Source of the DNA: Cyprinodon diabolis
Lineage: Eukaryota > Chordata > Actinopteri > Cyprinodontiformes > Cyprinodontidae
Reading direction: 5' to 3'
Length of the DNA: 64,000 bases
Assembly (NCBI GenBank): GCA_030533445.1
Contig: CM060075.1
Location: forward strand, 35,147,196 to 35,211,195
Shown here: positions 1-56,972 of the stretch, one piece after another
How positions within the stretch are numbered: the stretch's first letter is position 1
Layout: the number at the start of each line of letters is the position of its first letter
The notes under the pieces: model-generated
What the model was told of the DNA's origin: nothing
What the model saw: only the letters and a program-made list of their open reading frames with translations
The model's database searches: none
Program-made: the position numbers and the translations under genes

Positions 1-726
1 AGCCAAATTAGAGCCGTGGTTAAGTCCAGCTTTTATCATTTAAGTCGATTGGCGTCAGTGAAATCTTTTCTTTCCAGGCAGCATTTTGAAACACTGATCC
101 ACGCTTTTGTTTCAACTCGATTGGACTACTGTAATGCACTTTATCTGGGAGTCAGTCAGTCGCTGCTCTCACGTCTGCAGCTAGTACAAAATGCTGCTGC
201 ACGACTTTTGACAGGTACTCGAAAGAGAGAACATGTGACCCTTGTCCTGGCCTCACTTCACTGGCTGCCTGTATATTTTAGGATTCATTTTAAAATTCTT
301 ATGTTTGTTTTTAAATCATTGAATAATCTTGCCCCAGCTTACCTCACTGAGCTTCTTCATCCTTACGTACCCCATCGGTCTCTCAGGTCAGCAAATCAGC
401 TGCTCTTGGAGGAACCAAGAACAAAAAGGAAGCTCAGAGGGGACAGGGCTTTCTCTGTTATGGGCCCCAAATTATGGAATGACTTACCTTTGCAGGTCAG
501 AGAGGCCCCTTCTCTGCCCATTTTTTAAAGCTCGTCTTAAAACCCATCTATTTTACTTGGCTTTCAACACCAGTGGGATCTAGTTTTTAAATTGTATGTT
601 TTTGTTTTTTAAACTGTTTTTAAATTACTTTTATTATGTTGTGTTCTTAAATTGTACAGCACTTTGAATCAACTGTGGTTGTTTTAAAGTGCTTTATAAA
701 TAAAGTTGGTATGGTATGGTATGGTT
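1..726 (+). mobile_element. L2-clade LINE, 3' end with reverse transcriptase C-terminus
   Basis: Positions 16-528 read as the C-terminal part of a LINE reverse transcriptase, with the motifs RLDYCNALY, QNAAARLL and LHWLPV typical of the L2/Maui clade in fish. The frame breaks near 520 in a T-run; the next frame continues with FKARLKTHLFYLAFN. The end is an AT-rich 3' UTR and a tail of tandem ATGGT units at about 708-726. The 5' part lies outside the window. It sits in an intron of the downstream acetylcholine receptor gene and is a dead, truncated copy. Confidence 0.85.
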
Positions 727-2114
727 AAACCCAGACGCACGCATCACTGTAGTTTTGCATAGCTGGAACTCCACAAACTGTTGACACATCAAACTTTGAC
801 TGACATATGTTGTTAGCCAATAGGATAAGCTTTGCAGTGGAATATTAGAATTGAAGGGCTTATAAGATAGCATTTATTTATGTGCATAAGGAGTGAGAGG
901 AGAGATAAATTGATTGGATACGCACAAAAAGAGCATAGTGAAAATTCTGAAAGCTGAAAATTTTAAATATTATTAAAAAAAGGTGCTTGAATGAAAATGT
1001 TTGTAAAGCTACAAATAGAAATGTGTTTTAATGGTTGAAATATTCATAAAATTCGAATAATCCGATCTGACACTTTTAGTCCTAATTTGGATCATTTGTT
1101 CTAAATGGATCTTTTGGATACACAAACAGTTTCACAGTGTCACAGTTTCACAATGTTTATCACTGGAGATATAAAACTTTACACAAGTATTGTCTCCAAC
1201 ATGTACAACAACTGTAAAGAGTTGGAGATGTCAACTATGAACCATACCCAAAATATGGAAAATAAAAAAGTTTTTTTTTTTTCATGCAAGGGGAAAAAAA
1301 TGTTGTTAAATAGCTCAGGCTTTGTAAATTTTGTAGAATGTGTACATATATCACCTGGAACTAAAAGATTTCAGGTAGCAGCCATTCAAAATCTCCCATT
1401 CCAGTCAAATGAAAGCAGAATAGCAGCCCACTCCCCTGCGATTTCCAGCTAAATCCCCTCGAACTTCCAGCCACCTGCCTTCTCCTGGTTGTGAATTTTT
1501 TACTCTAGCGTCACCCTTTCACTGAATTGCAGGGTTTGATATGTACAACCTGAGTATTTACATTAGTACAAAGATTGATGTTTAAAAAGTAATTGTAGAG
1601 GACCAGCCAAGGATCAGCCAAGAACCAGCAAAGGGCCCATCAAGGAAAGTGGGGAAATTTGAATGGCTACTGCTAAAGCTTTCAAATGAGACAAATCAAA
1701 AGCAATTAGGATTGATTTTATTATTTCTCTGGCCAACGGCATTTCAGTCTGCAATTAGCATTTTTGTGCACAATCTATAAAAAGCTAAGGGGTTAAAGGC
1801 AGAGCGAATGTATGATTCAGTATAGCTTTTCATAGCATCTCATTCTCTAGCACACATTAGTTCATAGCTATCTACACAATAGCTTGAGTTTTTTTTGATC
1901 ATCAGACTTTCAGAACAAGGTGGTAAGACAATTTTTAGGTATGGATAAATAAAAAGGTTGTTTTGAAGTCAGACATTCTTTATATGTACACATTTTAAGG
2001 TCTAAATTATTATTTCTTTAGAAAACCAGTCTAGTGTACTGACGTAAGGTTTTTGTGCTTCGGTGTGAATCCTAAGTCTTTTCTGCTCTGTTCTTTCCAT
2101 TTTCCTTCTTTTAG
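727..2114. other. intron sequence of chrnb1, no gene seen
   Basis: AT-rich DNA between the LINE and the first visible receptor exon. I looked for the preceding receptor exon (M1 segment) and did not find it, so it must lie to the left of the window. The open frame at 1105-1452 has no recognisable motif. Confidence 0.6.
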
Positions 2115-5100
2115 GGGAGAAGATGACTCTCTCCATTTCTGTCCTCATCGCTCTGACGGTCTTTATGTTGCTACTGGCCGACAGAGTCCCAGAGACGTCA
2201 CTTGGCATCCCTATCATCGTCAACTACGTCATGTTCACCATGATCCTGGTCACTTTCTCTGTCATCCTGAGTGTGGTGGTCCTCAACCTTCACCACCGAA
2301 CGCCTAGTACCCACATCATGCCAAACTGGGTTAGAAAGGTATAAAGCATCTACCCATACTAATTCAAAATGTATGTGCAAATGCAACTTCAATTGATCCT
2401 TAAACCTAAATTTACAGGTCTTCATTCACATCCTGCCCAGATACATCGGTATGATGAGACCAAACCCAGAAGAACCTTTACTGGAGGAGGATTCAGAGAA
2501 GGATGACACAACGTTCCGAGGTCTAACTGTACGCCAGCCTGGAGGAGAGTACTTCTTTCGCAAGATCAACCCTGATCTTGTCTTACCTTGGAGAGGGAGG
2601 TACGGTTATGTTGTTTCATTTTTAGCTTGAAAGTTTTAACTGAGTGTATAGTTCCACCTACTATTAGATTCCTTAGACTCCATACATGTGGGAATTTGTT
2701 TGAAACTTTCTTATTCATTATTTCATTTTCACATTGTTTTAATGTACACATAAAATCACAAACTCCAGCTGTTATTTGAATCTTTACCAAATATACACGG
2801 ATTGAAGATGGAATAATAATCTGAATGCAAAATTTGTATGAGCTCAAAATCAAAAAATCTAATCATCACTTGCATTTACCTGGATCAGTCTATATTCAGA
2901 ATAGAGGTATTCTACCATGCAAAGATTCGTTATATTATCAAAACCAAAGAAGAAAAGTCTTGGTTCTGACTGTTTTTCCAGAACGGACCTAAGACAGGTT
3001 CTAACTGCAGTTAAAGCATCACAGTTTTCTCTAATGACTCAACAGAGTGAGAAGCTCATTGTTTTGCTCTTCCTGTTACAGAGTCAGAGGTAATTAACCA
3101 TACTTTAAAGTTCTGTGCTGCTCAGTACTACTGTCCCTGGTTTGATGGGACAGCAGACACTGCGTCCCCACTTGGACCGGCTGTACCAAAACTGAATTTC
3201 CATTTAGGGAATTATTTTTATTATATTTTAATTGAACTGTATTGAATTTACACAAATGCACTGTTGTCATGTCAGTGTACTCCAAATCTATTTCATTAGA
3301 ATTCTGCCTAAAGTCCACACGTGTAAAACATACTCATACTTTACAACTGCTTCCACTTGCTACTCTCCTTTGGCTTCAAGAACATCTCAGCTCTCCTATG
3401 AACCCAGCGTGGTTTCTAGGCATCTCTCGTCCCATTACAGCAGCATCAGATTCAGCCTCAGCTAAGCCTCACACTCCCATTCACAGTCGCCAGCCACTAA
3501 GCCTCTATTTAGGTTGGGCATTAGGGGGTAATCCCACAGAAAGGAGGTAGAGGATGGGGGAAGATCTGACAGGGAGAGATGATTGCCATTGCTGAGTGAT
3601 AGGGGCTTGATATTGGATAGAGAAGAAAGACACAGCTTTCATCGCCATATCTTGCAATACAGTTAGAGGAAAGTTATTTCAGTAGAAATTAATCGCTTTG
3701 GGTATACTTATTTCCTATAAGCGCTGGAAAATATTTCGCCCACTCAAAAATATCTCCTTGTTTTGAATAAGATTGTTCTTGATAGGGTCACAGCTTTTTT
3801 AATATTAGAGTCAAAACAGTTGGGTTAATGGTTTGGTTCAACCTAAAACTAGGTTGTCACAGTGTTGAATGTGGAGAGTATGTTGCATGCACTATTAACC
3901 GTTCCTTTTCGCTAACCTACAAGTACTCACACCTCCCTTCAATCAGCTGCTTCATTTATTTAGTCCATGGTTTGTCACACTGTCTCCCTTTGTCTGGCTC
4001 TTCTGACGCCTTCCTCCTGCTGGTGCCATGCTTATTGCCCAGTGTTACCAGCATGCATGCTATGTAACTGTACACTGCATACACGCACTGTATAATTGAT
4101 GGCTCCACTGTGACAGGTGTGCTTGCACACATGCAACTGGAATGCATTTAAAGAAATTCCAGTGTTTTAGGAATCGAGTGATGAAGAAGTGGAGTAAAAC
4201 CTGGAAAGCTTGTTGTGTTTCATGTAAACTGACCTAAATATCTGCTGTTTATTGGTGGGAGATTTGCACAAGTTCTTTAGCCTGACTTTTAATTTTAAAC
4301 ATTTGAAGTCATTAGTTTTATATACACCATGCAACTATAGTCTATGATGTAAAGTAGAGTCAATGACATGCACATAATGCTTAGTGGGGTGATTGGAATC
4401 AGCTGTTTCTTGAGATGAGTTTGCTTAACAAGAGACTGGGAGATTGGATTAGAGGGGAACATAGCAGATATAGAGTAAAATGGGTTTAATGGAGGAATAC
4501 CATCAAAACTCAAAAACAGATGGCTGTCTCCTGTTTTGAAAAGTCTTCAATTCTGCTACAAAAATGTAGCATGTTTAAATTTTAATAAATAATTTTTAGA
4601 AGAACAAAAGCAGGATAGTTTCTGATAATGTGAATTAAGATATTTTTAACCCCAAAAAAGCTATTTAAAATGATATCTATATATAGGTGTATATCATCTG
4701 TGACTGGAAGAATTGTTCAGAGGTCATTGCATCACATAGATGTTGCCCCATAGTCACCAACTGCATGTAATACTAAGTTTGTAATGTTTGTCTGTTGTGG
4801 GAAAGATAATGTCATTGGTGGCATGTGACTGTGGAGTGGAAAAACACTTTGCACTATTGAGTCATGACATAAATCACATCTTATAGAGCACCTGTGAAGG
4901 GGCCTGTCTCATGCGCATAATGTGGATATTGCAGATGTAAGAACAGTGCAGGCTGGCAGTTATACCTAAAAGGACTTTATTCAGCAGTCAGAAACTATGT
5001 AACATATAAATATAAATAAATATAAAACATATAGAAAATAAATATATAGAAAAGATATAAAAATAGGAATTATGCTTGTAATGTTAGGACTTGTGACGAA

Positions 5101-7430: not shown

Positions 7431-9042
7431 CAGGTGCTGGTCATAAAATTAGAATATCATGAAAAAGTAGATTGATTTCAGTAATTCCATTTAAAAAGTG
7501 AAACTTGTATATTATATTCATACATTACATACAAACTCATATATTTCAGATGTTTATTTTGTTTAATTTTGATGATTACAAATGACAACAAATGAAAATC
7601 TCAAATTCATCATATCAGAAAATTAGAATATTGTGAAAAGGTTCAAAATTGATGGCCCCTGGTGCCACACTCTAATCAGCTAATTAACTCAAACCACCTG
7701 CAAAAGCCTTTAAATGGTCTTTCAGTCTAGTTCTATAGGCTACACAATCATGGGGAAGACTGCTGACTTGACAGTTGTCCAAAAGACGACCATCGACACC
7801 TTGCACAAGGAGGGCAAGACACAAAAGGTCATCGCTAAAGAGGCTGGCTGTTCACAGAGCTCAGTGTCCAAGCACATTAATAGAGAGGCGAAGGGAAGGA
7901 AAAGATGTGGTCGAAAAAAGTGTACAAGCAAGAGAGATAACCGCACCCTGGAGAGGATTGTGAAACAAAACCCATTCAAAAATGTGGGGGAGATTCACAA
8001 AGAGTGGACTGCAGCTGGAGTGAGTGCTTCAAGAACCACCACACACAGACGTATGAAAGACATGGGTTTCTGCTGTCGCATTCCTTGTGTCAAGCCACTC
8101 TTGAACCACAGACAGCGTCAGAAGCGTCTTGCCTGGGCTAAAGAGAAACAGGACTGGACTGCTGGTGAGTGGTCCAAAGTCATGTTCTCTGATGAAAGTA
8201 AATTTTGCATTTCCTTTGGAAATCAAGGTCCCAGAGTCTGGAGGAAAAGAAGAGAGGCACTTCATCCACGTTGCTTGAAGTCCAGTGTAAAGTTTCCACA
8301 GTCAGTGATGGTTTGGGGTGCCATGACATCTGCTGGTGTTGGTCCATTGTGTTTTCTGAGGTCCAGGGTCCACGCAGCCACATACCAGGAAGTTTTAGAG
8401 CACTTCATGCTTCCTGCAGCTGACCAACTTTTTGGAGATGCAGATTTCATTTTCCAACAGGACTTGGCACCTGCACACAGTGCCAAAGCTACCAGTACCT
8501 GGTTGAAGGACCATGGTATCCCTGTTCTTAATTGGCCAGCAAACTCTCCTGACCTTAACCCCATAGAAAATCTATGGGGTATTGTGAAGAAGAAGATGCA
8601 ATACACCAGACCCAACAATTCAGAAGAGCTAAAAGCCACTATTAGAGCAACCTGGGCTATCATAACACCTGAGCAGTGCCACAGACTGATCGACTCCATG
8701 CCACGCCGCATTGCTGCAGTAATACAGGCCAAAGGAGGCCCAACTAAATACTGAGTGCTGTACATGCTCATACTTTTCATGTTCATACTTTTCAGTTGGC
8801 CAACATTTCTATAAATCCTTTGTTTTTATTGGTCTTCAGTAATATTCTAATTTTCTGATATGATGAATTTGAGATTTTCATTTGTTGTCATTTGTAATCA
8901 TCAAAATTAAACAAAATAAACATCTGAAATATATGAGTTTGTATGTAATGTATGAATATAATATACAAGTTTCACTTTTTAAATGGAATTACTGAAATCA
9001 ATCTACTTTTTCATGATATTCTAATTTTATGACCAGCACCTG
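7431..9042 (+). mobile_element. complete Tc1-like transposon with long inverted repeats
   Basis: The ends are CAGGTGCTGGTCATAAAATT and its inverted copy, flanked by the target dinucleotide TA at 7429-7430 and 9043-9044. The terminal inverted repeats are about 200 bp and nearly perfect (7431 to about 7630; about 8840-9042). Total length is 1612 bp, the size of a full Tc1-like element. The long repeats and the open transposase frame suggest a young insertion, about 120 bases past the chrnb1 polyadenylation signal. It resembles flatfish Passport-type elements, but I am not certain of that name. Confidence 0.96.
7750..8754 (+). CDS. Tc1-like transposase, intact DD34E
   Basis: Cut-and-paste transposase of the surrounding element, 334 residues. 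An upstream in-frame ATG at 7714 exists, but MGKTADLTVVQKTTIDTLHK matches the usual Tc1 start. The N-terminal half has two helix-turn-helix regions (around EGKTQKVIAKEAGCSQSSVS and the later THRRMKDMGF). A GRKK basic stretch lies between them. The catalytic triad is visible as D in FSDESKF, D in QQDLAPAHS and E in NPIENLW, with the usual 34-residue D-E spacing. The C-terminus AKGGPTKY is typical. There is no stop or frameshift, so the copy could still be functional, although activity cannot be judged from sequence alone. Confidence 0.95.
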   Translation: MGKTADLTVVQKTTIDTLHKEGKTQKVIAKEAGCSQSSVSKHINREAKGRKRCGRKKCTSKRDNRTLERIVKQNPFKNVGEIHKEWTAAGVSASRTTTHRRMKDMGFCCRIPCVKPLLNHRQRQKRLAWAKEKQDWTAGEWSKVMFSDESKFCISFGNQGPRVWRKRREALHPRCLKSSVKFPQSVMVWGAMTSAGVGPLCFLRSRVHAATYQEVLEHFMLPAADQLFGDADFIFQQDLAPAHSAKATSTWLKDHGIPVLNWPANSPDLNPIENLWGIVKKKMQYTRPNNSEELKATIRATWAIITPEQCHRLIDSMPRRIAAVIQAKGGPTKY

Positions 9043-16289: not shown

Positions 16290-17510
16290 CACTCACCGGC
16301 CACTTTATTAGGTACCCCATGCTAGTAACGGGTTGGACCCCCTTTTGCCTTCAGAACTGTCTCAATTCTTCGTGGCATAGATTCAACAAGATACTGGAAG
16401 CATTCCTCAGGGAGTTTGGTCCATATTGACATGATGGCATCACACAGTTGCCGCAGATTTGTCGGCTGCGCATCCATGATGTGAATCTCCCGTTCCACCA
16501 CATCCCAAATATGCTCTATTGGATTGAGATCTGGTGACTGTGGAGGCATTTTGAGTACAGTGAACTCATTGTCATGTTCAAGAAACCAGTCTGAGATGAT
16601 TCCAGCTTTATGACATGGCGCATTATCCTGCTGAAAGTAGCCATCAGAAGTTGGGTACATTGTGGTCATAAAGGGATGGACATGGTCAGCAACAATACTC
16701 AGGTAGGCTGTGGCGTTGCAACGATGCTCAATTGGTACCAAGGGGCCCAAAGAGTGCCAAGAAAATATTCCCCACACCATGACACCACCACCACCAGCCT
16801 GAACCGTTGATACAAGGCAGGATGGATCCATGCTTTCATTTTGTAGACGCCAAATTCTGACCCTACCATCCGAATGTCGCAGCAGAAATCGAGACTCATC
16901 AGACCAGGCAACGTTTTTCCAATCTTCTATTGTCCAATTTCGATGAGCTTGTGCAAATTGTAGCCTCAGTTTCCTGTTCTTAGCTGAAAGGAGTGGCACC
17001 CGGTGTGGTCTTCTGCTGCTGTAGCCCATCTGCCTCAAAGTTCGACGTACTGTGCGTTCAGAGATACTCTTCTGCCCACCTTGGTTGTAACGGGTGGTTA
17101 TTTGAGTCACTGTTGCCCTTCTATCAGCTCGAACCAGTCTGGCCATTCTCCTCTGACCTCTGGCATCAACAAGGCATTTCCGCCCACAGAACTGCCGCTC
17201 ACTGGATGTTTTTTCTTTTTCGGACCATTCTCTGTAAACCCTAGAGATGGTTGTGCGTGAAAATCCCAGTAGATCAGCAGTTTCTGAAATACTCAGACCA
17301 GCCCTTCTGGCACCAACAATCATGCTACGTTCAAAGTCACTCAAATCACCTTTCTTCCCCATACTGATGCTCGGTTTGAACTGCAGGAGATTGTCTTGAC
17401 CATGTCTACATGCCTAAATGCAATGAGTTGCCGCCATGTGATTGGCTGCTTAGAAATTAAGTGTTAACAAGCAGTTGGACAGGTGTACCTAATAAAGTGG
17501 CCAGTGAGTG
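16290..17510 (-). mobile_element. complete Tc1/mariner-type transposon with short inverted repeats
   Basis: The ends CACTCACCGGCCACTTTATT and CACTCACTGGCCACTTTATT (on opposite strands) make an inverted repeat of about 26 bp. Target TA lies at 16288-16289 and 17511-17512. Length is 1221 bp. The same family is present, broken and in the opposite orientation, at 33545-34687. Confidence 0.95.
16322..17362 (-). CDS. Tc1/mariner-type transposase, intact DD34E
   Basis: A 346-residue cut-and-paste transposase starting [20 protein letters not shown]. The N-terminal helix-turn-helix ([20 protein letters not shown]) is followed by a second DNA-binding half with a GRK motif. The triad is D in WSDESRF, D in QQDNAPCH and E in NPIEHIW. 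It ends AKGGPTRY just inside the left terminal repeat, a very compact layout. No stops or shifts are present. The broken relative at 33693 lacks 20 residues of the helix-turn-helix and has several frame breaks, so this copy is the better preserved of the two. Confidence 0.95.
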
Positions 17511-18045: not shown

Positions 18046-18338
18046 TAGAAGGAGTTGAACCAAACATTTATTATTAACACTTTTCAAGTAATTTGTGTGA
18101 TGCCAACAAAATTTTGGAAGAATCAGCCCAGTTTGGGAGCAGACAGGATTCCCACACCCACTTTCACACCATCACCCCCTCCGTGGAAGCCCACCCACCC
18201 TCAGGGATTCACCTCTCTCTGCACACTGACTCTGCATACAGCGCTGTTAAGCCCAAACGGTCCGAAGGAAGTTTTGGAAGTGAACTTTTTTAGGGGGTAA
18301 AATCTCGTCTCTTTGCGCCAGGAAAGTTTAATTACAGA

Positions 18339-30005
<11,667 letters not shown>

Positions 30006-33544: not shown

Positions 33545-34687
33545 CACTCACCGGCCACTTTATTAGGTACACCTGTCCAACTGCTCGTTAACACCTAATT
33601 TCTAAGCATCCAATCACATGGCGGCAACTCAGTGCATTTAGGCATGTAGACATGGTCAAGACAATCTCCTGCAGTTCAAACCGAGCATCACTATGGGGAA
33701 GAAAGGTGATTTGAGTGACTTTGAACGTGGCATGATTGTTGGTGCCATCTCTAGGGTTTACAGAGAATGGTCCGAAAAAGAAAAAACATCCAGTGAGCGG
33801 CAGTTCTGTGGGCTCAAATGCCTTGTTGATGCCAGAGGTCAGAGGAGAATGGCCAGACTGGTTCGAGCTGATAGAAGGGCAACAGTGACTCAAATAACCA
33901 CCCGTTACAACCAAGGTGGGCAGAAGAGCATCTCTGAACGCACAGTACGTCGAACTTTGAGGCAGATGAGCTACAGCAGCAGAAGACCACACCGGGTGCC
34001 ACTCCTTTCAGCTAAGAACAGGAAACTGAGGCTACAATTTGCACAAGCTCATCGAAATTGGACAATATAAGATTGGAAAAACGTTGCCTGGTCTGATGAG
34101 TCTCGATTTCTGCTGCAACATTCGGATGGTAGGGTCAGAATTTGGCGTCTACAACATGAAAGCATGGATCCATCCTGCCTTTTATCAACGGTTCAGGCTG
34201 GTGGTGGTGGTGTCATGGTGTGGGGAATATTTTCTTGGCACTCTTTGGGCCCCTTGGTACCAATTGAGCATCGTTGCAACGCCACAGCCTACCTGAGTAT
34301 TGTTGCTGACCATGTCCATCCCTTTATGACCACAATGTACCCAACTTCTGATGGCTACTTTCAGCAGGATAATGCGCCATGTCATAAAGCTGGAATCATC
34401 TCAGACTGGTTTCTTGAACATGACTGTACTCAAATGGCCTCCACAGTCACCAGATCTCAATCCAATAGAGCATCTTTGGGATGTGGTGGAACGGGAGATT
34501 CGTATCATGGATGTGCAGCCGACAAATCAACTGTATGATGCCATCATGTCAGTATGGACCAAACTCCCTGAGGAATGCTTCCAGCACCTTGTTGAATCTA
34601 TGCCACGAAGAATTGAGGCAGTTCTGAGGGCAAAAGGGGGTCCAACCGTTACTAGCATGGGGTACCTAATAAAGTGGCTGGTGAGTG
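33545..34687 (+). mobile_element. defective copy of the 16.3 kb Tc1/mariner-type element
   Basis: Same ends (CACTCACCGGCCACTTTATT and inverted partner), with TA at 33543-33544 and 34688-34689. Length is 1143 bp against 1221 bp for the intact copy, from several internal deletions. Orientation is opposite to that copy. Confidence 0.95.
33693..34655 (+). pseudogene. broken Tc1/mariner-type transposase
   Basis: Starts [18 protein letters not shown], then jumps to ISRVYREW. A 60-base in-frame deletion removed most of the first helix-turn-helix. A TAA stop interrupts at about 34069 (after AHRNWTI). An 11-base deletion near 34423 shifts the frame between the second and third catalytic residues. A further loss near 34530 and a one-base loss before the stop follow. 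Catalytic motifs QQDNAPCH and NPIEHLW remain readable in different frames. It cannot make a working enzyme but could still be mobilised through its intact ends. Confidence 0.92.
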
Positions 34688-34821
34688 TATGTCCAGCGTC
34701 TTGTGTTGCATCATTTAACATAAATTAAAAATAAGGTGGTCCAGTGTTACAGCAGGTGCACAATGCAACAGACTGGCGTCAGTCCCCCCTAGAAGGGTAG
34801 AGTGGATGTCACCCTCTTCTC

Positions 34822-42180: not shown

Positions 42181-42270
42181 CAGAGGAAACGCACAGGTTG
42201 GGAGGGGGAGGGTTCAGAGGGCTCCTTAATGGCGGAGTGACTCAGAAGGCAGCCAATGACAGCCTCTGCT

Positions 42271-42426
42271 CTATTATCAACCACGCATGAGGACCTAGTG
42301 AACTTTAACAACCCAGGCTCACAGAGATAACTAGTGACGCGTAAGTTTCTATTATCAACCACGCATGAGGACATAGTGAACTTTAACAACCCAGGCTCAC
42401 AGAGATAACTAGTGACGCGTAAGTTC
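42271..42426. repeat. 78 bp direct tandem duplication
   Basis: Copies 42271-42348 and 42349-42426 differ at one early position (GGACCTAGTG versus GGACATAGTG). Each contains TTTAACAACCCAGGCTCACA and ACTAGTGACGCGTAAG. It lies roughly 0.8 kb upstream of the camk2n start codon. Confidence 0.95.

Positions 42427-42581: not shown

Positions 42582-42584
<3 letters not shown>

Positions 42585-42674
<90 letters not shown>
42585..42674. repeat. (TA)n microsatellite
   Basis: About 90 bases of TA, preceded by A-rich AAATA units. Confidence 0.97.
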
Positions 42675-43186
<512 letters not shown>

Positions 43187-43333: not shown

Positions 43334-43405
<72 letters not shown>

Positions 43406-45151: not shown

Positions 45152-46082
45152 GTTAGATTATATGAATCTAAATAGAAGGTGAAAGCTATTGCTGTGAAAA
45201 GCATAAAACTTTCTCTTGTGCAATAAATGTTCCAGTATATAATTTCTAAGTTAAAGGACCTCTGTCCAATTCTGTCCAAGATTTAAAAATCTGTCCCAAT
45301 TACAGTACTGTAGATTAAAAAAAATACTTCATGCTGATTCTGAAACATCCATGAACCACCAAAGCTGGAGTTTACCTTAAATGTGCTGGCACAGCTAGAA
45401 CAGCAGGGGCACTGTCTACTATCAGGTGCACTGATCAAGACAGACGGAAATCAACAGCAGCAGCTTACATCGACAAGTCAAATAACTCATATTGTGAAGT
45501 TGTATCTTGTTAAAATGACAGGAATAATGCTAAGAGTTACCAGGTTGAGGCCTTTATGCCTAAGAGCACTGCACCAACTGTCAAGCTTTAAATTGAGGGG
45601 CTTTTTCAATTCATTTTGCACCAAAATGTACAGAATTATAGACAACTTTGACAAAATGATTGCAAAAAAAGCTGAAAACTAATTTCAAAGTGGAGAGTTA
45701 TGGATATATGAAATAAAAGGCGGAGATAGAAACTCATGGCTGTGTGTTTTCAAAGATTTGATTACCTAGTAAGCTACCCTGACATCCGTCTGAGCTTGTG
45801 AGGTGAAATTCTTGTTTTGTTCAGGTAAGTAATGGGCTGTTCTGGTGATTTAGACATAATGCATGTTATTAGCGGTATCGTCTGTCATTAGATCCTATCT
45901 AAAAGACCCTCTTGTTGTGTTTTTTTTGTCTACCATCGTTGGTGAAAGTTCGTTGGGACTCAGGTAATTGAGTCATGTTTGTGCAGGAGCAGGCGCTATC
46001 TTCAGCTTCATCACATTTCACGAACAAATCTAAGCAGCAAACAAAGATAGGCTTTGTCCCCACAAAAAAAAAGAATTCATCA
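45152..46082. other. intergenic upstream of the secreted-peptide genes
   Basis: No gene recognised; the open frame at 45383-45682 lacks motifs. Confidence 0.45.
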
Positions 46083-46148
46083 GACATGTCATGACCTATC
46101 CAGGACTCTGCAGCCCTCATGAATGAGGAAGTTCTGGTGCTATAAAAG
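46083..46148 (+). promoter_or_regulatory. promoter of secreted cysteine-rich gene 1
   Basis: A TATA box (TATAAAAG, 46141-46148) lies 61 bases before the ATG. Just upstream, GACATGTCATGACC and TGCAGCCCTCATGAATGAGG recur in similar form before the second gene (49614-49668). This shared block suggests common regulation. Confidence 0.65.
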
Positions 46149-46208: not shown

Positions 46209-47200
46209 ATGGCAAAGATTATAACAGCGACTCTGCTGCTCGTTATTCTGGTTGATTGCTTCTCCAACAGAACAGGTACGTGCACAAGAGAGATTTTTTT
46301 TTAAGTTGTTCTAGGGGCATGTGATGCTGTTTTTCCAAATCCGTTCTCCACTAAAATGATCTGATTCTTTCCCATCGATCCTTACAGCTCGTGGTGATAA
46401 ATCTGATTCTGTTGGATTTACGAGGGCTAATGTTCGTTCATGCCGATGCTCCAGTAAGTAATCAAATACACTTATTGTTTAACTCTTCTTGTTTAGATGA
46501 ATGCTTTATTATAGATTGGATATTTATGGGTTCACAGCAGGTGATACTTTTATTCCAGGGATTTCCTTTGGCAAGATGAAGTGTCCTTTTCCACTCATAC
46601 CCACATATGAAGGACAAAAGCATAAAGTTTGTCAAGAACATCAAAATGGTGAGTGAAATACCACAATCTTCTAAACAATTTAATAGCACTTTTAATAGTT
46701 TTATATTGCAATTATATCATTAATACTTTAATACCCAAAACGTATCTGTTCAGATCAAATTATTTTATTTCCAAAAACGAACATTAAGTTCTTACATTTT
46801 AGTATCAAGTTTTTCAAATATTGCTGTCGATATGGAAAAAGTACCACATGACAGAAAAATGCATTTCAAATGTGATGCATTTGGTGTTTTACGGTTAAAA
46901 TGTTATATGACCACCCCTTTTTTTCTTGTTTTCTTTTTCCAAAGTTGAGAGATGTCTCCCAGCACATACGGACTTATACATTCCAAAAGAAATGCGGAAA
47001 CTTATGCATTGCCTTTGCTGCAATTTAAACATAAAGAGTAAGTCTAACTTTGTCTTTTATTTCCTTGTTTTTTCTCGCAATGTTTTAAAAATTAATTTGT
47101 AAAAAAGTGATGCAACTACTGATTTTTCTCTTTCTTTCTAGGAACCCCAGCCATGAGAGAGTTCTGCAGATTCTCATGTCATCATCCAACACCTTTATAA
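46209..47200 (+). CDS. small secreted cysteine-rich protein 1, unknown family
   Basis: Five exons: 46209-46275, 46388-46453, 46559-46648, 46945-47037 and 47142-47200. All introns are GT-AG and phase 1, giving 124 residues. Exon 1 is a signal peptide (MAKIITATLLLVILVDCFSN). The mature protein has ten cysteines at 41, 43, 53, 69, 78, 97, 99, 100, 114 and 118. They include a CRC motif and a CLCC motif. An RGD tripeptide (24-26) sits at the probable mature N-terminus. The end is RTPAMREFC...TPL. The downstream paralogue has one exon fewer. The layout (signal exon, then a CxC exon) is chemokine-like, but cysteine spacing does not fit CXC or CC chemokines, and I do not recognise the family. A polyadenylation signal lies at 47424. 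Confidence 0.72.
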
Positions 47201-49613
47201 ACAAGGGGGAGTTAAAGGGGGATTTTGGTTGAATCACAAATTTGCATTGATGTTTCTCAGTGCCTTATTTCCTGCTCTACTCGTCGAAAAATATCAATTT
47301 ATTATTGATGTTAGGTGTTATCATTGACCTGTTATCATTTCCCCCTTGTTTCAACTGTTTTTTTTTTTTATTTGACTGTATTTTTTTTTTATCTCAGTGC
47401 ACATAAAATGCGTATTCCCCAGGAATAAAAAATAACATGTAAATAAAATCATAAGAATGTATATAGGGATTAAAATGGACCGCTGACCAAACAGCTTAGC
47501 TAGAGCTGAAGTCACAGATTAAAAATTTGTCACTATTAAAAGTTATAGGCTATACATACCAGGTAAATGTTAGTTTTTTGCTTTTAGAAGCCGTTTTTTT
47601 TTTTTAATAAAACAGCCAATGAAAATAAATCTTTTAGGAAAGAACAAAAGAGTTGTTCAACTAAAATGTCCTTCAAATGTCAGGCTGGGACCTTTTGATG
47701 GCAAATTTTCCACACAGGGATGTATTCATTAAACAAAAGTCGGTAACAAATACAGTAAAACTTTAACTTCTACAGTCACTTATTTAGCAGATAATTCTTC
47801 AAGCATTTCTTCTTCCTGTTCAAAAAGCCAGTAAAGATTCCCAGGCTTGCAAAGGTGTAACTACTGTAGAAACATATATTTAATGCCGTGAAGCAAATAG
47901 TATGAATTATAGTTTGGGAAGTTCATTTGGCTAAAAAGATTTTAAAACTCTGCACGCTTATTGGAAAATATGTTTTCATGCAAAAATAATGACAATATGA
48001 ATTAACAGCTATTATTTAAGCCAATTTTTTTCTATCGCATATTGAAGACAACATAGGTGACCAAAGTGCTACAAAAGTGTTACAAAATGTATTGATAATT
48101 GATTGCATTAAAACCATTAAAACAAATAAAAGTAGAATAAAAAAGGTAAAATACCCAGTGAAATAAATAGATCTAATAAGCATAATGGTAAGCTAAAATC
48201 TGCTCAGCTATAACTAAAATAAAGTGACAGTTGGTCTAAAAGTGATTTTGTGCATTTTAAACATCTTTTTCATTGTATAGTAATAACTTGTATAGCGATC
48301 TACTGTTTTTTGCTTTTTCTATCTTCTTTTGAATGTGTTTTTTTTTTTTGTAACTGTGTGTTTTTTTACGAACTGATTTTGAAGTTTCAATAAAGCTTTA
48401 TTTTATATAAAAACGAGAAAAACATGCCACAGATTGTCTTTAATTTAAGCAGTTTATTAAGTGAGGTTAAATAAAACCACTCATGCTTAGTGAAGTCTCT
48501 AAGTTTACACTTTTAATATATAACTGGGGCATTCTTTATGTGAATTTTTTTATTTTTAAATTAATCAGTGTTTTTAGGATCCCTTATCCTTTATTCTTTT
48601 AACCACTCTTCAAAATGGGAAAACAAGAAACAAGTAATTGGAGGAAATGGTTATATATCAAAAGATTAATAAAATCTGATTGCTGTTAGAAGACTTGATC
48701 AGGCGGTATCTTCATGTCCCAAATAGCATCTAAATAACATCTACATGGTGAATGTGAACAGGGAGCAAGCTTTGGGAGGTATTGGGAATCCTGTTTTGTT
48801 TTTTGTGTTTTTTTTTAACTGATTCTTAAAAAAAATGAAAAAAAACAGAAATGACAGGTGTCTTTGTCATGATGTGGTTAAAGAAATATCCAAGGTTGTA
48901 GTTGTACTAAAAACTGTAAAAAAAAAAAATAAAAAAAAAAGAAGCCAGTGAAATCAAAAGTAGAGAAAATGACAACAGTGAGCATAAATAAAGGGATGGA
49001 GGAGAAGATATAGCAAGTAAAACCAAAAGAGTTAAAAGAGGAGTTTTGCTGCATCTGGGGGAGAGTAAAGGCAGGAGAGCTGATGTGAGAATAATTAACC
49101 AAAGCAGAGGATCAAGAGAAAGTATCTGGCATAAATCTAGCAGAAAAATCTGTTAATGTAAGAAAAAAAATGATAAAAGCAAACATTGAACTATTATGAA
49201 CACAAATAAGGAAAATGGTAAGGCAAAAATATACCAAGTTTCCAACAAAATCTGTAGAAATGTTTTAGTTCATTTTAAACAACAAGGAAAACATAAAATA
49301 TAGAGATAAAAGAAAACCAGCAGACAAACTGGGATCACAATAATTTAAAAAGCATTTTTAATAAAGTATAACATAAAGAAGGAAATGCAAAACATTTTTT
49401 TAATATAAATTCTTCTATTATATGCATTCTTCCACAGCTTTGGCTTCATTAAATAAAAACATTTGGGGTCTAATCTGCTGATAAACAGGACTTGGCTCGA
49501 CTTGCTTCCTCTCTCAGATTTGAATAGGATTTTATTAATGATTTAATGCACAGATAAATGATTAACTCCCACCCACCACCACCTCCACCTACCACCAACC
49601 TCCTTCCTCTTTA
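47201..49613. other. spacer between the two paralogues, no gene seen
   Basis: Very AT-rich, with T and A homopolymers and several AATAAA words. No third paralogue exon was found here. Confidence 0.55.
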
Positions 49614-49680
49614 GACATGTCAGGACTCATCTCCATGACCAAACTTTGCAGCCCTGCATGAATAAGGATTAATAAAGGTA
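49614..49680 (+). promoter_or_regulatory. promoter of secreted cysteine-rich gene 2
   Basis: GACATGTCAGGACTC and TTGCAGCCCTGCATGAATAA mirror the block before gene 1. A weaker TATA-like AATAAAGG lies at about 49671, some 80 bases before the ATG. Confidence 0.55.
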
Positions 49681-49755
49681 CAAAGCAGTCTGTAGTTGCG
49701 CAGTTAGACAGATGCTTTTAGAGACCTCCGAGCGAAAACAGGAAACCCTAACACC

Positions 49756-51294
49756 ATGGCTAATCCAATGGGAGTCACTCTTCTGCTGATCATACTGGTC
49801 AACTGTTTTTCCGACAGGACAGGTACTTCGTCCAAAACACAGATTGAGATGAATAAATATTTCTCATCTAACAGGTTCTCTGATTGACAATCTATTAGAT
49901 TCATTATTTGGGTATGAATTGTGTATTTCTCCTTCTGTATTAATTTAGGATAATTTTTTGTTGTCTTTTTTTCCTTTTCAGCTCACTGTTATAAATCTAA
50001 TTCTGTTGGATTTACTAAAGCAGAAATACGCAGATGCACATGCTTAGGTAAGTGATAACTGGCTGGCTAAGCCTTTTAATATTTCCTTTAGAATTATCAG
50101 GGTTGCAAAAATGTTGCTGTCTGCAAGAGTAAACTGAACAAAGCAAAACTCCCTGAACTCCCTGTTAGGTTTCTCCTTAGGTGTGAGTGTGTGTGTAAAT
50201 TGTTGTTTGCCCTGTGATGGACTGGCGACCTGTCCAGGGTCTACCCTGCCTCTTGCCCGTAGACAGCTGGAGTTAGGCACCAGCAACCCTTGCAACCCCA
50301 CTTGGGATTAAGCGTGTCAGCAGATGGATGGATGTATTTCTACTGAAAGGCACACTAGGGAGTGTCTATTGGCCACAAGTGCTGCAGTACTGTTGCAACA
50401 GTCAACACTTTGCGGAGACACAGCTGCCATGTGTTTTGATTAGGGAACGCGCTAGGCATCTAGGTTCATCATCAGAAACGCTGCTGCTCTCTGGAGAGCA
50501 CCATCGGGACACATAACGGGGCATGGAGGACCAGCGGCAGAGCTCCAGTGAAGAGCCACTGGGTCGGACGGGGTGTTCTTCTAGTTCACATGACTTAGCC
50601 ACTGCGTTGCGTCTTCTCCCAACTTACATAGGGGGTATTTCAACCGGGGAGCCCCAATTGTAGCAATGATAGTGTCAAGTGCTGTATAGTGGCCTGAGGA
50701 ATCATTTAAAATAATGAATATGCATCCACTCATAAGTTCACAAAGTCCGCATTGTGCCTTTAAGGCAGGGGTTTCAAACTGGTTCCAGAAAGGGCCGTGC
50801 GGCTGCAGGCTTTCTTTCCAACCAAGCAAAAGCACACCAGACACCATTCATCTCATCAAGTCATCATGTTCAGATTGGACTCAAAACCACTTTGACACCC
50901 CTGCTTTAAGGTATTAAACTGTTGTTTTGTTGTTGTTTTTTTTTTTGGGGGGGGGGGGGGGGGGGTTGTTTTTTTCCTTTTGAGTTTTTTTTTGCAAACT
51001 TGGTATGAAACATCTATATAACCATCTTTGTCATTTCAGTTATTGGGCTCTGCAAAATGAATTGTCGCTATCCACTTCCAGTCTTAAGTGATACAGAGCA
51101 AGAGGCTGTGAAGAGATGCCTGTGCTGCAAAGTAAAGAACAAGAAAGACAGTAAGTGAAGCTTAAGCATATTTTGCCTTATTCTTTTTAGCTCACTATCT
51201 AATCATGTTTTCTTCTCTAATCTTTACAGGAACTCCAAAGAGAAAACAATTCTGTGATTCTGTTCGATGCTATACTCCAGCAGGGCCTTTATAA
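49756..51294 (+). CDS. small secreted cysteine-rich protein 2, tandem paralogue
   Basis: Four exons: 49756-49822, 49982-50047, 51040-51150 and 51230-51294, all GT-AG and phase 1, giving 102 residues. The signal peptide is MANPMGVTLLLIILVNCFSD. Ten mature cysteines lie at 25, 41, 43, 49, 53, 71, 73, 74, 90 and 95. SVGFTKAEIRRCTC aligns with SVGFTRANVRSCRC of gene 1, KRCLCC with MHCLCC, and RTPKRKQFC with RTPAMREFC. In place of the RGD of gene 1 it has HCY, which adds a cysteine. It is basic near the C-terminus (KVKNKKDRTPKRK). Intron 2 is swollen by a retroelement tail, a hAT MITE and a G19 run. Function unknown; a host-defence or signalling peptide is a guess. A polyadenylation signal lies at 51735. 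Confidence 0.75.
50195..50338 (+). mobile_element. retroelement 3' tail with GATG end, in intron 2 of gene 2
   Basis: CCCTGTGATGGACTGGCGAC, CCACTTGGGATTAAGCG and GATGGATGGATG form the same retroelement end seen in reverse at 22015-22180. Confidence 0.7.
50766..50903. mobile_element. 138 bp hAT-type MITE in intron 2 of gene 2
   Basis: Ends CAGGGGTTTCAAACTGGTT and AACCACTTTGACACCCCTG, with exact 8 bp duplication CTTTAAGG at 50758-50765 and 50904-50911. Confidence 0.95.
50947..50965 (+). repeat. G19 homopolymer flanked by T-runs
   Basis: Nineteen consecutive G between T-rich runs, 75 bases before the acceptor of exon 3 of the second secreted-peptide gene and on its sense strand. It could form a quadruplex in DNA or pre-mRNA. 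Run length may also be a sequencing artefact. Confidence 0.9.
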
Positions 51295-53940: not shown

Positions 53941-55447
53941 GTCAATTCAATTCAATGCAGTTTATTTATATAGCGCCAAATTCACAACACATGTCATCTC
54001 AAGGCACTTTACAGTTCAACCAGATCATACAGTCAAATTGATACAAAGTTTTCTATCTAAGGAAAACCAGTTGATTGCATTGACTCATTGACTCAAATAC
54101 AATCCCTCACACTAAGCATGCTTGCAGCGACAGTGGAGAGGAAAAACTCCCTTTTAACAGGAAGAAACCTCCAGCAGAACCAGGCTCAGTGTGAGCGGCC
54201 ATCTGCCGAGGCCGACTGGGGTTCAAGGAGACAGAAGCAGAGATACAAAAATCAGCTGTAAAAGGCGGCCCCGTCCAGGAAACACACAGCCAGGCAGACG
54301 AGCTCCAAGGCAGCTCCCATGCCAGAGGATGAAGAGAGCACATCCACCCAGCCACGGCCAGAGAAACAGGACCACACTGAAAAACAGGCCAATCTCCAAC
54401 ATCTACAAACAAGGGTGTTGATGGAAGCAGCACAGCTGATGTTTCTTTCCTGGATGACGTCACAGCCAAACAGGAACAGACGAGGCAAAGCTACTCTGAG
54501 GAAAAGCAGAGAGAGCAGAACGTTAGAGATTGAACTAACAGATTCTGCAGAATAGGAGAACAGAGAGAAAATGAAGCAGAAAGATGAAATGGGGGTCCCT
54601 ATGTCCTCCAAAAGTCTAAGCCTATAGCAGCATAACTTTAAAGACAGCTCAGGATAACCTGAGCCACCCTAACTATAAGCTTTATCAAAAAGGAAAGTTT
54701 TAAGCCTAGTCTTAAAAGTAGACAGAGTGTCTGCCTCACGGACTAAAACTGGTAGTTGGTTCCACAGGAGAGGAGCCTGATAACTAAAAGATCTGCCTCC
54801 CATTCTACTTTTAGAAATTCTAGGAACCACTAGTAAACCTGCAGATTGAGAGCGAAGTGCTCTGTTAGGAACATAAGGAACAATCAGATCTCTGATATAA
54901 GATGGAGCTTGGCCATTTAAGGCTTTATATGTGAGAAGGAGGATTTTAAATTCAATTCTTGATTTAACAGGAAGCCAATGAAAAGAAGCCAGGATAGGAG
55001 AGATATGATCTCTCTTTTTAATTTTCATCAGAACTCTGGCTGCAGCATTTTGGATCAGCTGAAGGCTTTTAACTACAGTTTGTGGACTTCCTGATAGTAA
55101 AGAATTACAATAGTCCAGCCTTGAAGTAACAAATGCATGGACTAGTTTCTCAGCATCACCCCTGGACAGGAGATTTCTAATTTTTGCAATATTCCTCAGA
55201 TGAAAGAAGGAAATTCTAGAAACCTCTTTGATCTGGGATTTAAATGACAGGTCCTGATCAAAAATAACACCAAGATTTTTTACTTTATTATCTGAAATCA
55301 GTTTAATCCCATCCAAATGAAGTGACTGGCTAATCAGCTTCTTTTTCAGAGACTCTGGTCCAAAGACTATAACTTCTGTTTTGTCTGCATTCAGAAGCAG
55401 AAAGTTAAGAGTCATCCAGGTTTTTAAGTCTTCAAGACATGCCTGTA
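53941..55447 (-). mobile_element. L2-clade LINE inserted in the hAT element
   Basis: The 5'-truncated LINE runs from about 55447 down to an ATTGA-repeat tail near 53945. It has a long 3' UTR (53960-54668) shared with 34822-35342 and 27838-28240. Confidence 0.9.
54669..55415 (-). CDS. LINE reverse transcriptase, C-terminal 248 residues, frame intact
   Basis: Open from MTLNFLLLNADKTEVIVFGP to the natural end FKTRLKTFLFDKAYS. It lacks the catalytic YADD-containing half because the insert is 5'-truncated; homologous sequence continues upstream of this ATG to about 55447. Motifs TSRLDYCNSL, IQNAAARVL and FHWLPV are those of the L2 clade. The clean frame means this insertion is younger than the copies at 27838 and 34822. 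Confidence 0.9.
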   Translation of the reverse strand: MTLNFLLLNADKTEVIVFGPESLKKKLISQSLHLDGIKLISDNKVKNLGVIFDQDLSFKSQIKEVSRISFFHLRNIAKIRNLLSRGDAEKLVHAFVTSRLDYCNSLLSGSPQTVVKSLQLIQNAAARVLMKIKKRDHISPILASFHWLPVKSRIEFKILLLTYKALNGQAPSYIRDLIVPYVPNRALRSQSAGLLVVPRISKSRMGGRSFSYQAPLLWNQLPVLVREADTLSTFKTRLKTFLFDKAYS

Positions 55448-55970
55448 ATCTATGTTACTGTAATCTGTCTCCTCCTCCATCCTGTGTGTGTGGCTCTGTG
55501 TGTCTGCGGATGTCATTCTTTGAGTTCCACTGCAGTGCGCATGCACATGTTTCGTAGACACAGACAGGAGAGGCAGAATAGAGGCTCATGCGTGAATGTC
55601 CAGCAAATAACTCCGATTGTTGTTTCAAAAATAGAAAACCTGGTTTCATTACTTAGTTATGCCCTGGATTTTGAAGCGTTTGTGGACGCTACGTCGCAAC
55701 TTGATAAAAACAATAACGTCACTACTGGAAAGTTACTTGATAAATAAAGCAGCGACGCTACGGTCAAGCTACTGGAAAATGTAGTTAAACTAATAGCTTC
55801 GCTACATGTAGCGGCGCTACTGCCCATCACTGCAATCTGCTGCTCAGCTGTTCCATGGCCAGTCGTGTGTTATTCCCTCATTATCCCATTTACAAGGAGC
55901 AGATAAGAGGTCCAGAGTTCATTTCAAGTCTGCTATTTGCATTTGGAATCTGTTGCTGTCAACTCTCAAT

Positions 55971-56972
55971 ATGAGATCTAAAGAGCTGTTGCTATCAGTA
56001 AAGCAAGCCATCATTAGGCTGAAAAATCAAAACAAACCCATCAGAGAGATAGCTAAAACATTAGGTGTGACCAAATCAAGTGTTTGGAACATTCTTAAGA
56101 AGAAATAACGCACCGGTGAGCTCAGCAACACCAAACGACCCATGAAGATCACGGAAAACCACTGTGGTGGATGACCGAAGAATTCTTTCCCTGGTGAAGA
56201 AAACACCCTTCACAACAGTTGGCCAGATCAAGAACACTCTCCAGGAGGTAGGTGTATGTGTGTCAAAGTCAACAATCAAGAGAAGACTTCACCAGAGTGA
56301 ATACAGAGGGTTTACCACAAGATGTAAACCATTGGTGAGCCTCAAAAACCGGAAGGGCAGATTAGAGTTTGCCAAACAACATCTAAAAAAGCCTTCACAG
56401 TTCTGGAACAATATCCTTTGGACGGATGAGACCAAGATCAACTTGTACCAGAGTGATGGAAAGAGAAGAGTGTGGAGAAGGAAAGGAACTGCTCATGATC
56501 CAAAGCATACCACCTCATCAGTGAAGCATGGTGGTAGTGTCATGGCGTGGGCATGTATGGCTGCCAATGGAACTGGTTCTCTTGTATTTATTGATAATGT
56601 GACTGCTGACAAAAGCAGCAGGATGAATTCTGAAGTTTTTCGGGCAATATTATCCGCTCATATTCAGCCAAATGCTTCAGAACTCATTGGACGGCGCTTC
56701 ACAGGGCAGATGGACAATGACCCAAAGCATACTGCGAAAGCAACCAAAGAGTTTTGTAAGGGAAAGAAGTGGAATGTTATGCAATGGCCAAGTCAATCAC
56801 CTGACCTGAATCCGATTGAACATGCATTTCACTTGCTGAAGACAAAACTGAAGGGAAAATGCCCCAAGAACAAGCAGGAACTGAAGCCCGTTGCAGTAGA
56901 GGCCTGGTGATGTCTATGCCTTCCAGACTTCAGGCTGTAATTGACTGCAAAGGATTTGCAACCAAGTATTAA
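55971..56972 (+). pseudogene. broken Tc1-like transposase of the outer element
   Basis: Starts MRSKELLLSVKQAIIRLKNQ with a recognisable first helix-turn-helix (IREIAKTLGVTKSSVW). It stops at TAA 56106-56108. The frame resumes from about 56164 (VDDRRILSLVKK) through D in WTDETKI, D in QMDNDPKHT and E in NPIEHAF. It is broken again at 56908 (VEAW then TGA), with the normal ending DCKGFATKY readable up to 56972. At least two lesions; it is not functional. It lies entirely to the right of the hAT insertion. Confidence 0.92.

Follow-up and report, generated by a model that had tools for sequence, protein, structure and literature searches.

Tandem ten-cysteine genes of Cyprinodon diabolis as probable variant members of the fish CXCL17-like family

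A stretch of 64,000 bp of Cyprinodon diabolis (assembly GCA_030533445.1, contig CM060075.1, positions 35,147,196 to 35,211,195 of the forward strand), referred to here as the window, carries on its + strand a tandem pair of genes for small cysteine-rich proteins, gene 1 at 46209..47200 and gene 2 at 49756..51294. These genes probably represent the fish cxcl17-like gene (zebrafish si:dkey-112a7.5) in two tandem copies, an assignment made from the features printed in PMC12905490, the source of the zebrafish data used below. As both products have ten cysteines and not six, they are probably variant rather than typical members of the family. The initial annotation had presented the pair as an unrecognised family; no Pfam-A family indeed scored above its cut-off for either product, but their features match those of the fish CXCL17-like proteins, and it was partly wrong to call the family undescribed: the pair is most probably a variant, in tandem and enriched in disulfides, of one that was described in 2026.

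Both gene models were verified by script. Gene 1 consists of five exons (46209-46275, 46388-46453, 46559-46648, 46945-47037, and 47142-47200, stop included) and gene 2 of four (49756-49822, 49982-50047, 51040-51150, and 51230-51294, stop included), and in both of them exons 1 and 2 measure 67 and 66 bases, respectively. The adjacency of the two paralogues and the phase-1 introns reported in the initial annotation were borne out, with 7/7 introns being GT-AG and 7/7 in phase 1, and neither frame contains a stop or a frameshift. The predicted proteins have 124 amino acids, ending in TPL (gene 1), and 102 amino acids, ending in GPL (gene 2); these lengths had been given before as those of the mature proteins, and while the figures are right, both refer to the full-length products. 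The N termini are hydrophobic by eye, the isoelectric point (pI) computed from residue 24 onward is 9.4 for each product, and the tails that follow the last cysteine are HHPTPL and YTPAGPL in gene 1 and gene 2, respectively. Intron 2 of gene 2 harbors a 30-base motif (50216-50245, +) that occurs a second time in the window at 22144-22173 on the - strand (with 0 and 3 mismatches, whereas 100 shuffles gave no occurrence) and resembles a dispersed repeat such as a short interspersed element.

Alignment of the two proteins from residue 24 gave a score of 118, compared to a shuffled mean of 30.3 (standard deviation 5.5), and this score was reached by 0/1000 shuffles, both in full shuffling and with the cysteines fixed in place. 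The comparison of nonsynonymous and synonymous divergence (dN and dS) between the paralogues, which had been proposed earlier, was carried out by the Nei-Gojobori method over 96 aligned codons, leaving aside the last aligned block of 2 codons, and yielded a dN of 0.40 and a dS of 1.25. The resulting dN/dS of about 0.32 points to purifying selection and is a rough figure because dS is high; the ratio of uncorrected proportions (pN/pS) was 0.51 (bootstrap 2.5-97.5%, 0.37-0.69), and the differences at the first, second, and third codon positions numbered 31, 28, and 50, respectively. The genes are thus an old paralogous pair under purifying selection.

The 5' regions are related as well: a block at 46082..46129 (+) upstream of gene 1 aligns with a block at 49613..49668 (+) upstream of gene 2 with a local score of 43, above the best of 200 shuffles (31), in agreement with the related upstream blocks noted in the initial annotation. 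A possible TATA box of gene 1, TATAAA (46141..46146, +), identified by motif only, lies 68 bases 5' of the ATG, and AATAAAGG lies 85 bases 5' of the ATG of gene 2. Both start codons are preceded by in-frame stops (at 46143 for gene 1 and 49705 for gene 2), and AATAAA is present downstream of both genes. That these are unexpressed genes or chance open frames is accordingly given almost no credence, in view of seven GT-AG phase-1 introns without a stop or frameshift, the dN/dS of about 0.32, and the conserved upstream block; the view of both as real genes is plausible and is backed by the intact models, the alignment against shuffles, the selection estimate, and the upstream block.

Cysteines are located at residues 17, 41, 43, 53, 69, 78, 97, 99, 100, 114, and 118 of the gene 1 product and at residues 17, 25, 41, 43, 49, 53, 71, 73, 74, 90, and 95 of the gene 2 product, so that each has ten after residue 17. 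The statement that each mature protein contains exactly ten therefore holds as a count, but only 8/10 cysteine columns are common to both copies in the alignment, and in gene 2 the number depends on Cys25, which belongs to the mature protein only if cleavage takes place before it: with cleavage at 25 nine would be left, and with cleavage after S19 or A23 all ten would remain. A signal peptide of 25 residues is predicted for zebrafish CXCL17-like (PMC12905490). The private cysteines (69 and 78 in gene 1, 25 and 49 in gene 2) come two per copy, and thus would fit one private disulfide in each.

The combination of a CxC motif with a Pro-Leu end is suggestive of CXCL17 and pointed to the fish CXCL17-like family, described in January 2026. 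According to that report (PMC12905490), its members have a signal peptide, a length below 200 amino acids, and a C-terminal Xaa-Pro-Yaa in which Xaa and Yaa are typically large aliphatic residues; six cysteines served there as a search criterion, and the homologues found have six. The absence of a Pfam match above cut-off for the present pair is likewise what would be seen with a family that still lacks a model. The zebrafish protein Dr-CXCL17-like (si:dkey-112a7.5) has 95 amino acids, a pI of 10.0, and cysteines at 36, 38, 48, 66, 68, and 86, for which AlphaFold3 disulfides C36-C66, C38-C48, and C68-C86 are given (PMC12905490). Six of the ten cysteines of gene 2 (41, 43, 53, 71, 73, and 90) keep this spacing within one residue, the pattern being CxC-9-C-17-CxC-16-C in gene 2 and CxC-9-C-17-CxC-17-C in zebrafish, that is, steps of 2, 10, 18, 2, 17 compared to 2, 10, 18, 2, 18. 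When ten cysteines were placed at random in 79 positions, a step set like that of gene 2 arose in 26/400,000 trials, and in 99/400,000 trials when the CxC and CxCC units were kept, the one-residue tolerance on the last step having been chosen after the match was seen. Gene 2 also shares the four-exon structure of zebrafish cxcl17-like (PMC12905490), and the gene 1 product agrees with the zebrafish protein in the order of the cysteines and in CxC-9-C. Both copies resemble the fish proteins in the penultimate Pro, the terminal Leu, the hydrophobic N terminus, and the small size (124 and 102 amino acids, below 200) and basic charge (pI 9.4 compared to 10.0 in zebrafish), and differ from zebrafish CXCL17-like, as described there, in forming a tandem pair.

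The genomic context is partly in line with this assignment. The neighbors of zebrafish cxcl17-like are ponzr genes, ugt5g1, and cldn7a (PMC12905490), and the window likewise contains a claudin, with one exon in an open frame at 18294..18602 (+; PMP22_Claudin, expectation value (E) 4.6e-13) and a further claudin exon in an open frame at 24623..24856 (+; PMP22_Claudin, E 9.5e-11). An open frame at 2069..2341 (+) includes an acetylcholine receptor subunit exon (Neur_chan_memb, E 3.2e-29), whose best PDB match was the muscle-type beta subunit (1oed_B, E 1.3e-32). In human, CLDN7 and CHRNB1 are located near each other, and this neighborhood would favor the identification of the window claudin as claudin-7.

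Several observations weigh against the assignment to the CXCL17-like family. Both copies have ten cysteines, compared to the six asked for in PMC12905490, and Pro is preceded by Thr in gene 1 and by Gly in gene 2, compared to what is usually a large aliphatic residue in the fish proteins. In gene 1, moreover, the step from C53 to the CxC is 44 compared to 18 in zebrafish, the last step is 15 compared to 18, and the exons number five instead of four. The best PDB match of the claudin frame at 18294..18602 was claudin-19, so that it is no more than a candidate claudin-7, and a motif scan, a weak test, revealed no convincing ponzr or UGT gene in the window. Finally, homologue searches returned no fish relative from the collections covered, and the match is founded on features printed in PMC12905490.

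Part of these data would also be explained by an unrelated secreted cysteine-rich family, perhaps antimicrobial or acting on another receptor, that came to resemble CXCL17-like proteins by convergence. The ten cysteines and the atypical Xaa before Pro speak for such an origin, as do the database searches: homologue searches gave no sequence relative in any collection searched, one search returning two word-sharing candidates, neither at E <= 10. No PDB sequence was matched by gene 1 and none credibly by gene 2, for which seven designed proteins (best E 0.032) all aligned to the charged stretch 58-78 and were rejected as compositional; Imm49 in Pfam was likewise rejected for gene 1 (E 0.29, below the family cut-off). 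Convergence is nevertheless judged unlikely in view of the simultaneous agreement in cysteine spacing, number of exons, Pro-Leu terminus, basic charge, and claudin neighbor. The literature searched for "CXCL17-like" and for si:dkey-112a7.5 returned PMC12905490 only; preprints and most subscription papers were outside this search, and other fish reports may exist.

Two better-known groups were also compared with the pair. Canonical CXC chemokines are likewise small, basic, secreted proteins whose CxC lies near the start, and were rejected on account of the ten cysteines, the Pro-Leu tail, and the lack of a match to any Pfam chemokine model (up to E = 1 for gene 1 and E = 10 for gene 2), the last of these, like the lack of a credible PDB match, agreeing with the earlier view that the pair does not belong to the chemokines; CXCL17 itself has been set apart from canonical chemokines (PMC10792014). 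CXCL17 proper, the mammalian protein and zebrafish zgc:158701, shares the same traits together with a C-terminal Pro-hydrophobic end, and a subset of the ten cysteines (41, 43, 71, 73, 90, and 95 in gene 2) follows its order CXC-CXC-C-C. Orthology to it is very improbable, as the steps of zebrafish CXCL17 (2, 11, 2, 18, 11, with positions taken from the predicted disulfides) differ from those of gene 2 (2, 28, 2, 17, 5), and zebrafish cxcl17 is bordered by pafah1b3 and ceacam1 (PMC12905490), whereas a claudin is found at this locus. Spacing and locus thus rule against CXCL17 proper, while cysteine order alone does not separate the two families.

With the pair taken as CXCL17-like, the difference in exon number between the copies was traced to intron 3 of gene 1 (46649..46944, +), which has no counterpart in gene 2 and was probably gained. 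Exon 3 of gene 2 matches exon 3 of gene 1 at its front (20/25 bases identical, score 25 compared to at most 24 in 200 shuffles) and exon 4 of gene 1 at its end (22/28 bases identical, score 26 compared to at most 21 in 200 shuffles). Between the proteins, the front match persists with the cysteines fixed (1/1000 shuffles equal it), and the rear match is cysteine-dependent, being equaled in 4/1000 full shuffles and in 162/1000 with the cysteines fixed. As zebrafish cxcl17-like has four exons and gene 2 keeps its spacing, gene 2 probably shows the older, four-exon state, to which gene 1 would have added an intron and, between C53 and the CxC, about 26 residues. An origin of exon 4 of gene 1 as a duplicate of its exon 3 was unsupported, with 911/1000 protein shuffles and 54/200 DNA shuffles doing as well.

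No credible third copy was found in the window among the best 60 tblastn rows; the best row outside both genes (56226-56297, E 0.031) lies inside a Tc1-type transposase frame of 254 amino acids (56146-56907, +). Two other frames of this type (HTH_Tnp_Tc3_2, DDE_3), read from stop to stop, are located at 7714-8751 (+, 346 amino acids) and 16325-17413 (-, 363 amino acids), and pieces within 33642-34725 (+) resemble by eye a broken copy of the latter element, of which the piece tested, 34071-34535, matched nothing in Pfam at E <= 0.001. The long open frames at 1-525 (+) and 54672-55454 (-), also without a Pfam match at E <= 0.001, resemble ends of reverse transcriptases of long interspersed elements. 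In addition, the AT dinucleotide is repeated about 35 to 75 times in each of five arrays (18800-18949, 21537-21629, 42582-42674, 43074-43183, and 43334-43403), and a 78-base unit is present in two tandem copies with 98% matches (42270-42425). Scanning of the window for tRNAs and Rfam families gave nothing at gathering scores.

In zebrafish, two paralogues, CXCL17-like being one of them, bind and activate GPR25 and drive chemotaxis, and without their last three residues they have almost no effect (PMC12905490). By analogy, the pair would act as GPR25 agonists. Both products would be secreted, and their bodies would be held together by the three core disulfides modeled for zebrafish (C41-C71, C43-C53, and C73-C90 in gene 2), by a fourth that the copies have in common (C74-C95 in gene 2), and by a further one that is peculiar to each copy (C69-C78 in gene 1 and C25-C49 in gene 2). 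The basic body would bind glycosaminoglycans and thereby set up a gradient, and the free tail past the last cysteine would insert into the GPR25 pocket, where the last three residues, as in the zebrafish tests, would switch on the receptor and attract GPR25-bearing leukocytes. Because Thr and Gly stand where PMC12905490 expects a large aliphatic residue, the potency at GPR25 may be lower or changed. A stronger form of this idea, in which the extra disulfides and the altered tail left one or both copies antagonistic, weakly agonistic, or directed at another receptor, draws on these same two residues and on the extra exon of gene 1 with its approximately 26 additional residues; it is possible but rather doubtful, given that the Pro-Leu terminus is retained in both copies and that selection is purifying overall. 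Equally tentative is the suggestion of a ten-cysteine CXCL17-like branch in which a fifth disulfide arose separately in each copy, an exon was added to gene 1, the tails diverged before Pro, and GPR25 signaling was divided or changed in potency, by antagonism, or toward another receptor. As the eight shared cysteines contain the orders of both CXCL17-like and CXCL17, proteins of such a branch could even form a bridge between the two families.

CXCL17 was called mammal-specific in 2024 (PMC10792014), and members such as those of C. diabolis would be missed by the six-cysteine screen of PMC12905490. If the assignment is true, the CXCL17-like family would be widened, its disulfide set could grow while the Pro-Leu end stays, and the two copies would provide a natural test of the residue that GPR25 accepts before Pro.

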